Assembly (NCBI RefSeq): GCF_021245725.1
Contig: NZ_JAJGSX010000001.1
Span: forward strand, 620,001 to 684,000
DNA: 64,000 nucleotides
Direction of reading: 5' to 3'
Origin: Pseudonocardia sp. TRM90224
GTDB lineage: Bacteria > Actinomycetota > Actinomycetes > Mycobacteriales > Pseudonocardiaceae
In this document: positions 39,843-43,107 of the stretch, piece by piece
How positions within the stretch are numbered: the first letter of the stretch is position 1
How the letters are laid out: every line of letters starts with the position of its first letter
Program-made: the position numbers and the translations under genes
The notes under the pieces: generated by a model
The model's input: the letters and a program-made list of their open reading frames with translations, nothing else
What the model was told of the DNA's origin: nothing
The model's database searches: none

Positions 39843-40265
39843 GTGGACACCTCACTGCGGAGCACGCTGCACGAGCGCGGCCTCCGCATGACCCCGCAGC
39901 GCCAGCTCGTCCTCGACGCCGTGCGCGAGCTCGGTCATGCCACGCCGGAGCAGATCTGCACGCAGGTGCAACGCGCCGCGCCCGCCGTCAACATCACCAC
40001 CGTCTATCGGACGCTCGACCTGCTGGAGCGGATCGGTCTGGTCCGCCACACCCACCTCGGCCACGGCGCGCCCACCTACTCCGAGCGGGAGCACCAGCAC
40101 GTCCACCTCGTGTGCCACAGCTGCGGCGAGGTGAGCGAGACCCCCACCGAGCTGATGGACGCGCTCGCCGCGAGGTTGCGCCAGGAGTCGGGGTTCGAGC
40201 TCGACGTCACCCACGTGGCCTTGTCCGGCCAGTGCGGCGACTGCCGGGCGGCGAACGCCCGATGA
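39843..40265 (+). CDS. Fur-family metalloregulator, Nur-like
   Basis: This 140-residue Fur-family repressor has the winged helix (LRMTPQRQLVLDAVRELGHATPEQI at about 17-41, then NITTVYRTLDLLERIGLV), the metal-site histidines (HTHLGHGAPTY, EHQHVHLVCHSCGE) and structural CxxC pairs (CHSC, CGDC). Its sequence is close, from memory, to S. coelicolor Nur, the nickel-uptake regulator; Zur or FurA roles are less likely but possible. The GTG at 39843 precedes the first helix; it is divergent from the DivIVA-like gene and overlaps ygfZ by 4 nt. Confidence 0.88.
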   Translation: MDTSLRSTLHERGLRMTPQRQLVLDAVRELGHATPEQICTQVQRAAPAVNITTVYRTLDLLERIGLVRHTHLGHGAPTYSEREHQHVHLVCHSCGEVSETPTELMDALAARLRQESGFELDVTHVALSGQCGDCRAANAR

Positions 40266-41335
40266 CGATCCCGGCAACCGACCCGGACGCCGCCGTCCCC
40301 GCGCACCGCGGCGACCCGCTCGCCGAGCAGCGTGCGATGGCGCGCGCCGCGGCCGTCGTCGACCGCAGCCACCGCGGCGTCATCGCCGTACCCGGCGAGG
40401 AACGGCTGAGCTGGCTGCACCTCCTGCTCACCCAGCACGTCTCCGAGCTGCCCGCAGATACCGGCACCGAGGCGCTGGTGCTCGACATCAACGGCAGGGT
40501 GCTGCACCACATGGGCGTCGCGAGCACCGGCGACACCGTCTACCTCGACACCGACGCCGTCGAGGTGCCCGAGCTGCTCGACTACCTCAAGAAGATGGTG
40601 TTCTGGGCGAAGGTCGAGCCGCGTGACGCCAGCGCGGAACTCGCCGTGCTCAGCGTCGTCGGCCCGGAAACGCCCGCGGTCCTCACCGCGGCCGGGCTGC
40701 CGGTTCCGCGGCAACAGCTCGACGTCGTCGCCGTCGATGGCGGCGGGTTCGTCCGGCGCATGCCGTGGCCGGGGGCCGACGCCGCCGATGTCGTCGTGCC
40801 GCGGGAGAGCATGTCCACGTGGTGGGAGCGGCTCTCGTCGGCAGGCGCCCGGCCCGCCGGGACCATGGCGTTCGAGGCGCTACGCGTCGAGGCTCTGCGG
40901 CCGCGCAACGGGCTCGACACCGACGACCGGACGATCCCGCACGAGGTCGGCTGGATCGGCTCGGCCGTGCACCTCACCAAGGGCTGCTACCGCGGGCAGG
41001 AGACCGTCGCGCGGGTGGCGAACCTCGGCAAGCCGCCGCGCCGCCTCGTGCTGCTGCACCTCGACTCCGGCGACGACCACCTCCCCGTCGCCGGCGACCC
41101 CGTCGTTCGCGAAGGCCGGACGGTCGGGCGGGTGGGCACCGTCGTCCAGCACCACGAGCTGGGACCGGTGGCACTCGCGCTGGTCAAACGGACGGTGCCG
41201 GTCGATGCCGAGCTCACCGCCGGCGCTGACGAGCGCAGCGCTCCGGCCGCGATCGACCCGGCGTCCGTCCCGCCGGAGGACACCGCACCGCAGCCCGGCC
41301 GGGCTGCCCAGATGCGCGGCGGCCTGCGCGGCTGA
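40262..41335 (+). CDS. ygfZ: Folate-binding protein YgfZ/GcvT family
   Basis: This 357-residue aminomethyltransferase-like protein has the YgfZ signature KGCYRGQE (240-247, Cys242), the hallmark that separates it from GcvT. It starts with a tetrahydrofolate-binding domain (VIAVPGEERLSWLHLLLTQHV, about 40-60). YgfZ uses folate to support assembly or repair of iron-sulfur enzymes such as MiaB. It is translationally coupled (ATGA) to the Fur-family gene. The M. tuberculosis counterpart appears to be Rv0811c. The 30-residue C-terminal tail is Pro/Ala-rich. Confidence 0.93.
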   Translation: MTIPATDPDAAVPAHRGDPLAEQRAMARAAAVVDRSHRGVIAVPGEERLSWLHLLLTQHVSELPADTGTEALVLDINGRVLHHMGVASTGDTVYLDTDAVEVPELLDYLKKMVFWAKVEPRDASAELAVLSVVGPETPAVLTAAGLPVPRQQLDVVAVDGGGFVRRMPWPGADAADVVVPRESMSTWWERLSSAGARPAGTMAFEALRVEALRPRNGLDTDDRTIPHEVGWIGSAVHLTKGCYRGQETVARVANLGKPPRRLVLLHLDSGDDHLPVAGDPVVREGRTVGRVGTVVQHHELGPVALALVKRTVPVDAELTAGADERSAPAAIDPASVPPEDTAPQPGRAAQMRGGLRG

Positions 41336-41651
41336 TTCGCGTTACGCATGGCCGGTATTCGTCACTTGTTGCACGCGAAACCACTGGTCATTCCTTTCAG
41401 CTTCCTTCCAGGCTGACCGATACACAGTGGTAAGCGGCCGTACACATTTGTCTCCAATCACTGAATGCGCTTGCACCAGGACTCGCCGTCATCGCTCGAT
41501 GCATCCGTCTACCTGCGAGATGATTGCAAACATGCGATCTTGATCGATGCTCTGACCAGATCTGGATTCGATCAAGGGAAGACCCGCTCGATAGAGCGGG
41601 AATTGCGAGTTAATGTCGCCGGCGTCACGTCGATCCAACACTGGAGGGGTC
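41336..41651. other. 316-bp lower-GC intergenic region before the cysteine-rich peptide gene
   Basis: No gene is supported here. The stretch is clearly less GC-rich than its surroundings. It includes a 7-bp hairpin CCCGCTC-GATA-GAGCGGG (41583-41600) and ends in GGAGGGG before the peptide ATG. It probably holds the promoter and a long leader for the mini-peptide gene. No clear operator or riboswitch fold is recognised. Confidence 0.5.
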
Positions 41652-41816
41652 ATGCAGAGCCTGGTCAAGAAGGTCGCCGACGAACTGCTGGAGCTGGTTG
41701 CACCCAAGACGACTGCCGAAGCGGTCGTCTGCTGGCGCGAGTCGTGTGGCGGCGGCAAGGAGAAGGTCTGCTGCGTCCACAACGGCAGCCCGGTCTCGTG
41801 CACCCCGTGCCGGTGA
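41652..41816 (+). CDS. Cysteine-rich mini-peptide (54 aa), putative modified or secreted peptide precursor
   Basis: A 54-codon ORF begins ATG 6 nt behind GGAGGGG. Residues 1-24 (MQSLVKKVADELLELVAPKT...) form an amphipathic, leader-like helix. Residues 25-54 carry six cysteines at positions 27, 32, 40, 41, 50 and 53, a GGG turn and the ending SCTPCR. There is no classical signal peptide or lipobox. A long leader lies upstream and a strong hairpin lies 12 nt after the stop, so it is a monocistronic transcript. It could be a RiPP-like precursor, a metallothionein-like Cys peptide or a disulfide toxin; no modification enzyme is adjacent. An MFS permease follows after the terminator. Confidence 0.7.
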   Translation: MQSLVKKVADELLELVAPKTTAEAVVCWRESCGGGKEKVCCVHNGSPVSCTPCR

Positions 41817-41828
41817 CCTGATCGCAGG

Positions 41829-41862
41829 GACGAGGTGGGGACGCGCTCGCCCCCACCTCGTC
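41829..41862 (+). terminator. Terminator after the cysteine-rich peptide gene
   Basis: GACGAGGTGGGG (41829-41840) pairs perfectly with CCCCACCTCGTC (41851-41862) around a 10-base loop, 12 nt after the peptide stop and 54 nt before the MFS start. Confidence 0.82.
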
Positions 41863-41916
41863 CACCATCTGAGACAGATCTCTCGCTCTGCGGGATGCAG
41901 GCGTACCGTCCTGGCG

Positions 41917-43107
41917 GTGAGCATTGCTACCTACCGATGGGTTGTTCTAGCCGTCGGCACGCTCGCACAAGCCGCGACGGCCACCTACTTCCTCGGCCTC
42001 GCCGCCGTCACGCCGGCCCTCCGCGACCACTTCGGCCTCGATCTCGCCCAGGTCGGCGCGCTGATCGGGGTCATCTCGGTCGGGCTGGTCGGCACGCTCA
42101 TCGCGTGGGGTGGCGCCGCCGACCGCTTCGGCGAACGCGGCGTGATGGCCGTCGGGCTGCTCGGCGCCGCGGTTGCGCTGGGGGCGGTCGCGTTCGTGCG
42201 GTCCCCGCTGGTCGCCGGGGCGCTCCTGCTGCTCGCCGGCGCGTCCGGCGCGTCGGTCAACGCCGCGAGCGGCCGTGCCGTGCTGACCTGGTTCCCCTCG
42301 ACGCACCGCGGCATGGCGATGGCCATCCGCCAGACGTCGGTGCCCATCGGCGCGGCTCTGGCCGCTGTCGCGCTGCCGGCCGTCGCCGCCGGGGGCGGTG
42401 TCCCTGCCGTCTTCGGCGTGCTCGCGGGTTGCTGCCTGCTCGCGGCCGTCGCCGTCGTCATCTGGATCAGGGAGCCGCCCGGCGTCCGCACCCGCGACCG
42501 GGCGCCGGCAGCCGGGATGCGTGCGGTGCTCGCCGACACGCGGCTGCTCCGACTGAGCCTCGCCGGCTTCCTCCTCGTCGTCCCGCAGTTCCTCGGCTCC
42601 GTCTTCATGGTGGAGGTGCTGCATGATGGCGCCGGCATGTCGCTCGCGCTCGCCGGCAGCCTGCTTGCGCTGACCCAGGTGCTCGGTGCGGCAGGACGGC
42701 TCGGCAACGGGGTGTGGTCCGACCGCGCACGGGCCCGGATCGGGCCGCTGCGGATCGTCGCGCTCGCGGTGGCCCTCACGTGGGCGCTCTCGGCTGCATT
42801 GGAAGGCGGACCCGCGCCACTGCTCGCGGTCGTACTCGTGCCTGCTGCGGCGCTCGCCATCAGCTGGAACGGCCTCGTGTTCACGGCGGCGGGCGAGCTC
42901 GCACCGGAGGGCAGGGCAGCGACGGCGATGGCCGTCTCCAACACGGCGAACTACGTGGCAGCCGCCGTCACACCGGCGCTCGGCGGCCTCGTGGCACAGC
43001 TCACGGGCTGGCCGGCGATGCTCCTGATGGGTGCTATCGCGGCGGCCGCCGCCCTGTTGGCGCTGCGCGGTCTCGCCGAACCGGCCATGACCACCCGATC
43101 GAGCTAA
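41917..43107 (+). CDS. MFS transporter
   Basis: This 396-residue major facilitator permease has about 12 membrane helices, the loop 2-3 motif GGAADRFGERGVM (about 69-81) and a second-half version GNGVWSDRARARIG. The start SIATYRWVVLAVGTLAQA resembles the cyanate/nitrate-like or sugar-phosphate antiporter-type MFS proteins of actinobacteria. The substrate is unknown. The GTG start at 41917 has GGCG in front, so it is a fair but not certain choice. Its proximity to the Cys-rich peptide gene is suggestive, but a terminator separates them. Confidence 0.9.
   Translation: MSIATYRWVVLAVGTLAQAATATYFLGLAAVTPALRDHFGLDLAQVGALIGVISVGLVGTLIAWGGAADRFGERGVMAVGLLGAAVALGAVAFVRSPLVAGALLLLAGASGASVNAASGRAVLTWFPSTHRGMAMAIRQTSVPIGAALAAVALPAVAAGGGVPAVFGVLAGCCLLAAVAVVIWIREPPGVRTRDRAPAAGMRAVLADTRLLRLSLAGFLLVVPQFLGSVFMVEVLHDGAGMSLALAGSLLALTQVLGAAGRLGNGVWSDRARARIGPLRIVALAVALTWALSAALEGGPAPLLAVVLVPAAALAISWNGLVFTAAGELAPEGRAATAMAVSNTANYVAAAVTPALGGLVAQLTGWPAMLLMGAIAAAAALLALRGLAEPAMTTRSS

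Follow-up and report, generated by a model that had tools for sequence, protein, structure and literature searches.

The small cysteine-rich peptide gene in the window (the whole stretch of 64,000 nucleotides that was analysed) is one of about fifty dispersed paralogues, mostly single genes, in the genome of Pseudonocardia sp. TRM90224. The family has a conserved leader and hypervariable cores with even cysteine numbers, and in relatives it is linked to a cassette of four genes. The best explanation, with a probability of about 0.78, is that these genes encode secreted, disulfide-bonded peptides that would be exported by an ABC transporter and cut by a signal peptidase, the cassette serving the dispersed precursors in trans.

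The features of the peptide gene and its surroundings are listed in Table 1. According to the translated reading frame, the six cysteines are spaced C-x4-C-x7-CC-x8-C-x2-C. An earlier note, made from the letters alone, had described the gene correctly in this respect, as it had its good ribosome-binding site and its arrangement as a leader plus a cysteine core; the leader motif is common to 47 precursors of the same genome. The codon-position G+C content of the frame (0.61/0.50/0.89) is that expected for a coding frame. The lower G+C content that had been pointed out 5′ of the gene is real as well, being 54% for the spacer at 41340-41651 versus 71% for the whole window, and this spacer is probably part of a stretch that was acquired together with the peptide gene. 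The strong terminator that had been proposed is confirmed in part. Folding of 41820-41885 gives -33.7 kcal/mol (z -3.9), with none of 200 shuffles being equally stable, but the hairpin has no T tract and a terminator scan over 41300-41960 gave none. A scan of the same interval for sigma-70-type promoters gave none either, and a search of 41300-42000 against Rfam yielded only miRNA matches at chance level, under the gathering scores. The peptide itself has no match at E ≤ 1 in Pfam and NCBIfam, and the suggestion of an undescribed class of cysteine peptides is probably right.

Table 1. Features of the peptide gene and its flanks in the window.
Feature	Position	Strand	Basis
Upstream gene (presumably YgfZ-like), probable bystander marking the insertion site	40262..41335	+	Same-genus comparison
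Low-G+C 5′ spacer	41336..41651	+	G+C composition; 64-288 bp peptide-free spacer in 20 relatives
Ribosome-binding site GGAGGGG, just 5′ of ATG	41643..41649	+	Read from the sequence
Precursor peptide gene, 54 aa, ATG start, TGA stop	41652..41816	+	Sequence; among 53 own-genome profile matches
Leader, residues 1-24 (MQSLVKKVADELLELVAPKTTAEA)	41652..41723	+	Alignment of 47 own-genome precursors
Core, 30 residues, six Cys	41724..41813	+	Hypervariable between paralogues
Stable hairpin 3′ of the stop	41828..41863	+	Folding versus shuffles; possible terminator without T tract
MFS transporter (PF07690), probable bystander	41917..43107	+	Pfam; same-genus comparison

Used as a query against its own genome (G000; 9.38 Mb in 113 contigs), the window peptide gave weak matches, mostly centred on the leader. 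When eleven members were combined into a profile, 49 matches at E ≤ 1 resulted, from which 46 were extracted; with one more from the single-sequence search they make up a set of 47 precursors, which excludes three weak matches (E 0.19-0.52; on contigs C81, C70 and C37) and includes a weak one at C1:242733. The profile of these 47 recovered at least 53 own-genome matches at E ≤ 0.001 among the best 100 of 285 candidates scored. They are spread over 32 contigs, with seven neighbouring pairs less than 5 kb apart, and in 51 of the 53 the frame is open and about as long as usual. In one copy (C74:858-1037, L196) an in-frame stop breaks the reading frame, and another (C81:40305-40445, L267) extends past the usual end, which suggests a turnover of copies. 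In Pfam and NCBIfam searches at E ≤ 0.5, other families were matched by no more than one of the 47 members each (best: PF21320, 2.7e-4), and the peptide profile has no match at E ≤ 1 among PDB sequences.

Upstream of the 47 own copies, no word of 6-10 bases is shared more than in Markov controls, so there is no sign of co-regulation. Near-palindromic repeats of about 60-70 bp are found 3′ of several precursor genes (L014, L017, L026, L039, L040, L050 and L055). Shared flanking DNA was considered as the mark of a mobile cassette and was rejected, as the downstream repeats recur at up to 37 places of 150 bp in the 585 kb of own-genome DNA searched. Because of this wide recurrence, they look like extragenic palindromes and not like parts of the peptide genes. 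Two unlinked orphan precursors (L041 and L047) have an upstream stretch of 182 bp in common, with 88% identity, which is possibly the trace of a duplication or a repeat element.

A MAFFT alignment of the 47 own precursors has an invariant A24 and shows conservation of at least 90% at D10, L13, P18 and A22, the leader consensus being roughly R-L-A-D-R-L-L-x-x-V-V-P-x3-A-x-A. Type I signal peptidases follow a -3,-1 rule, and the family leader carries the small residues that it asks for at these positions (A-x-A). Alanine is found at -1 in 46 of the 47 precursors and at -3 in 42, in figures to which the anchoring motif contributes, as it itself demands small residues there. In the window peptide, the cut is predicted after A24. 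Of the 47 leaders, 38 have D at position -15, 29 have R or K at -18 and 20 have R at -14; these charges appear to speak against a classical Sec signal, in which some 8-12 residues form an uncharged hydrophobic core. The family does not belong to the class of double-glycine leaders and C39 exporters either, since the leader consensus has no GG and one cassette ABC protein, searched against Pfam, has no C39 domain. In the broad sense of the term, the family is built like a RiPP, i.e., as a ribosomal precursor with a conserved leader and a variable core.

The own cores are 30 to 50 residues long and show 44 distinct cysteine spacings in 47. The number of cysteines is even in all 47 (6, 8, 10 or 12) and likewise in six further own-genome matches, interrupted and run-on copies included. 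Family-wide, with the own copies included, 113 of 115 distinct cores are even and two are odd, the 115 being 116 rows minus one false match in L173; cores from a genus that contributed nothing to the profile are even in 24 of 24 cases. Control cysteine-rich frames without the leader are even in 553 of 1482 cases with a floor of five cysteines and in 553 of 873 when the floor is raised to six, so that the control parity depends on the floor, and neither figure approaches that of the family. The peptide profile favours cysteines, not their parity. The members are related and hence not independent draws; given 44 different spacings, however, descent alone would be a hard explanation for the even numbers. 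They would be explained by complete pairing of the cysteines, i.e., by disulfides. The earlier note had left the choice between a disulfide and a thioether peptide: the even numbers and the MauE/thioredoxin cassette favour the former, and the latter less.

Clustering of the neighbours at 61 loci revealed four families that recur beside the precursors in relatives: an ABC exporter of about 600 residues, a membrane-anchored thioredoxin-like protein of about 180 residues, MauE and signal peptidase I. The thioredoxin-like protein has an N-terminal helix and a C-x-x-C motif that is invariant in 27 aligned sequences; the alignment holds 27 of 29, leaving out one short sequence and one without C-x-x-C. 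The MauE of a relative scores 78.4 bits against PF07291 (cut-off 27), which places it in the MauE family, and the signal peptidase I scores 68.5 bits against TIGR02227 (cut-off 47), with its Ser and Lys invariant. The thioredoxin-like proteins are under the Pfam cut-offs and the NCBIfam MauD cut-off; against the MauD equivalog TIGR02661, the protein of one relative reaches 20.3 bits (cut-off 188.6) and the own-genome protein on contig C27 has no match at E ≤ 0.001. AlphaFold2 models of the own-genome MauE (pLDDT 92.7) and thioredoxin-like protein (pLDDT 95.7) are confident. The latter has a ResA/TlpA-like fold (best 3hdc, E 6.6e-7), and the MauE model matches nothing in the PDB at E ≤ 0.001. 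Thioredoxins of the ResA type frequently act as reductants and not as oxidants, so the redox chemistry of the cassette may run in either direction. A comparison of the MauE of genome G060 with plasmids gave no match. Other recurrent neighbours are a large regulator at 15 of the 61 loci (L119, L123, L128, L138 and others), which we take to be of the BTAD/NB-ARC type, and two clusters at seven loci each, presumably of the MFS and SDR types.

The linkage is also seen in a genus that was not used to build the models. There, loci were found by the peptide profile alone, and the cassette HMMs were built from order-level loci. Among 295 genomes of that genus, 35 were positive, and 20 of these contributed one locus each; two of the 20 loci (L303 and L308) are profile matches missed by the motif and stand outside the 18 loci counted. 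All four genes lie within 8 kb of the precursor at 16 of these 18, one locus having three and one having one, and the family thus has the linked modification, processing and export genes of a RiPP in the broad sense. Of the 40 loci of the order, many having served to train the models, 26 have all four genes within 8 kb and ten have none; nine of these ten are from two genomes (G218 and G060), both with many copies. Contig C23 of genome G011 carries identical precursors at two loci (L148 and L149), one with the full cassette and the other without a cassette gene by the HMMs. The cassette-free copy has only a thioredoxin-like remnant, which lacks the C-x-x-C.

Cassette and precursors co-occur across genomes too. 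Within the genus, MauE is found at 161 bits or more in 9 of 9 precursor genomes and at 100 bits or more in 1 of 53 others; within the order, it is found at E ≤ 1e-25 in 43 of 44 precursor genomes versus 13 of 353 others (Fisher 4.9e-10 and 9e-45, values that ignore phylogeny and rest on counts of the best candidates among the matches listed). The 100-bit and 1e-25 lines were drawn after the genus scores were known, and the best scores of the genomes leave the interval from 67 to 108 bits empty. At E ≤ 1e-8, 58 of the 62 same-genus genomes have a MauE-like match of some kind. Thirteen genomes of the order have MauE without a detected precursor. The sole precursor genome without MauE in the order scan (G224) has a weaker MauE, of 92 bits, near its precursor.

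In the own genome, one operon on contig C27 encodes the thioredoxin-like protein, the ABC exporter and MauE, the genes of the last two overlapping by four bases; this MauE scores 166 bits against the cassette profile, and no precursor was found near the operon in 20 kb. The three family signal peptidases are not on C27 but on contigs C24, C48 and C44, and those on C48 and C44 are open frames adjoining orphan precursors. To the window peptide, these peptidases would be tied by family only. Among the 43 own loci with a recognised precursor (L196, which has no motif-recognised precursor, is outside this number), none of the four cassette genes is present at 41 and the signal peptidase only at two. 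The separation of cassette and orphan precursors is repeated in genome G218, from another family, where the four-gene cassette has no precursor in the 19.5 kb searched and six fetched loci, of a genome with ten precursor matches, are without cassette genes. The remark of the earlier note that no RiPP enzyme is adjacent is incomplete: the cassette genes are unlinked from the window gene, but candidate machinery is present in trans (C27; C24, C48 and C44).

From these elements, the following route is proposed. The ABC exporter, being without a peptidase domain, would recognise the leader and export the precursor, and a dedicated type I signal peptidase would cleave it after A-x-A. The membrane-anchored thioredoxin-fold protein and the MauE-type membrane protein would make or shuffle the disulfides. 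In the own genome, the single exporter/thioredoxin/MauE operon on C27 and the family signal peptidases would serve the roughly fifty dispersed precursors in trans.

As a single query, the window peptide found 0 relatives in the genome contig collection and, at E ≤ 0.01, matched 2 of 60 genomes, i.e., the own one and one other. A phylum-wide scan with the peptide profile (E ≤ 1e-4, best 15 candidates per genome) was positive for the own genome only (1 of 396). This probably understates the spread of the family, because a denser scan of one same-class genus at E ≤ 0.001 gave 35 positives in 295. One family member is conserved in 10 Micromonospora records with all ten cysteines kept. These orthologues are under purifying selection, pN/pS (pairwise average, no tree) being 0.14 for the leader and 0.45 for the core. 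Together with the 53 profile matches in the own genome, this selection makes the window frame more than a chance one. The earlier note would have given up the gene if it had no homologues or if its frame were not conserved in relatives; looked at on the level of the family, it withstands this, the own genome alone holding those 53. In M. lupini (L152), all four cassette genes are within about 1 kb of the precursor. The Micromonospora cassette (L224-L231 and L233) adjoins a gene that we take to be pheT-like, with a presumably rplT-like gene further out in some records, and the pheT-like neighbourhood looks like a conserved integration place.

How the gene came to its present site can be judged from the same genus. 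The upstream gene, which we take to be YgfZ-like, has a match in 59 of the 62 genomes of the genus; the best 30 loci were taken, the own one included, which gives 29 of the 58 relatives. In 20 of these 29, the MFS gene follows the upstream gene after 64-288 bp, whereas the window has a spacer of 581 bp that contains the peptide gene. The remaining relatives comprise seven without the MFS gene nearby and two with partial matches only, and no motif-recognised peptide is present in the flanks of the upstream gene in any of the 29. Most simply, the peptide gene would have been gained alone at this site, next to an MFS gene that is an ancestral bystander. The earlier view of a monocistronic gene is right in that the gene stands on its own. 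The MFS protein that had been pointed out as an exporter was rejected as a partner on the ground of this comparison with relatives. The MFS gene is adjacent and on the same strand, but the gene order is the same where there is no peptide, and the MFS-type cluster that recurs at 7 of the 61 loci does not include the MFS gene of the window. That this protein exports the peptide is therefore scarcely credible.

More weight is due to the idea that the expansion left many orphans, the window copy among them, as decaying or silent relics, with only a few copies in use. The copy with the in-frame stop, the run-on copy and the lack of shared promoter words are what one would expect from it. We consider it unlikely nonetheless, given the frame of usual length in 51 of 53 own copies and, in the window copy itself, the ribosome-binding site, the high third-position G+C content, the intact leader and the even cysteine number. 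It is quite unlikely, too, that the cysteines are otherwise modified, by thioethers or other cross-links, with MauE and the thioredoxin handling the thiols or keeping them as such before an unseen enzyme acts. The RiPP-like layout of leader and core fits such a modification, and so does the ResA-like fold of the cassette thioredoxin, as such folds are often reducing. Moreover, decRiPPter took MauE clusters as RiPP candidates, according to the passages of that report on these clusters (PMC7794033). However, thioethers to Ser/Thr would not need the parity that is seen in 113 of 115 and in 24 of 24 cores. Beyond the four cassette genes, the regulator and the MFS-type and SDR-type clusters, no neighbour cluster is present at more than four of the 61 loci; the SDR genes are at least 3.2 kb from the precursors, and no Lan or radical-SAM cluster was recognised among the recurrent neighbours of these loci, as far as these neighbours were identified.

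Metal- or thiol-buffering small proteins, as opposed to secreted natural products, would also be small, cysteine-rich and present in many copies. This reading is very unlikely: the leader is conserved and ends in A-x-A, an exporter and a signal peptidase are linked to the precursors in relatives, and 44 cysteine spacings in 47 cores fit diversification and not one metal site. A secreted, disulfide-bonded peptide is the preferred reading. For its putative role, antagonism or signalling towards other microbes is the most likely one, at about even odds.

One leader that routes dozens of unrelated cysteine frameworks through a single system of export and oxidation would be a source of new peptides as well as a platform for the production of disulfide-rich ones. 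Orphan precursors far from the enzyme genes are easily overlooked by cluster-based genome mining, and the shared leader provides a direct handle to search for them.

Large disulfide-rich peptide arsenals are known from venoms and plants, and a comparable one within a single bacterial genome would be unexpected. Conotoxins and plant NCR peptides combine a constant leader with hypervariable cores on cysteine frameworks in large gene families, and they use the eukaryotic Sec pathway. They resemble the present family in the layout of leader and core and in family size, without any homology being claimed. We lean slightly towards seeing a bacterial counterpart of venom-type diversification here, with about fifty dispersed precursors, more than 40 cysteine frameworks and one trans-acting maturation system, through which further disulfide-rich peptides could be acquired as single genes, with no need for a biosynthetic cluster of their own. 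Among bacteria, the prochlorosins of cyanobacteria have many dispersed precursors with one leader, hypervariable cores and few enzymes. They are similar to the present family in these dispersed precursors with one leader and variable cores, but their lanthionine synthetase makes thioethers, in contrast to an actinobacterial cassette for export and oxidation.

MauE is thought to help, with MauD, in disulfide formation in a subunit of methylamine dehydrogenase, as stated in the passages on MauE of the decRiPPter report (PMC7794033). In that system the substrate is a protein, whereas here small peptides, an ABC exporter and a signal peptidase are involved, and the thioredoxin-like partner is, unlike MauD, under the cut-off of the MauD model. 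For TMcin, the sections that describe its maturation report leader removal, disulfide formation by a cluster-encoded oxidoreductase and ABC secretion, all of which resemble the proposed system (PMC13252029). TMcin differs, by the same sections, in being staphylococcal and in having a DsbA-family enzyme, an S2P-type protease and a transmembrane precursor with one disulfide (PMC13252029).

The closest description is that of decRiPPter (2020), whose passages on MauE list three mauE-containing families from Streptomyces as uncharacterised candidates, each with a predicted precursor of at least eight cysteines and one of them with mauD in addition (PMC7794033). The strict filter described there required a transporter, a peptidase and a regulator (PMC7794033). 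Those families and the present one have MauE, with or without a MauD-like protein, and cysteine-rich precursors in common, and they may well overlap, in a comparison of descriptions and not of precursor sequences. The passages on the decRiPPter families give no shared leader, signal peptidase site, even-cysteine rule, orphan expansion or service in trans (PMC7794033). Compared with the open-access literature searched, the leader with its signal peptidase motif and the linked peptidase, the even-cysteine rule and the co-occurrence of cassette and precursors are new, and above all so are the roughly fifty dispersed genes in one genome that are apparently served in trans.
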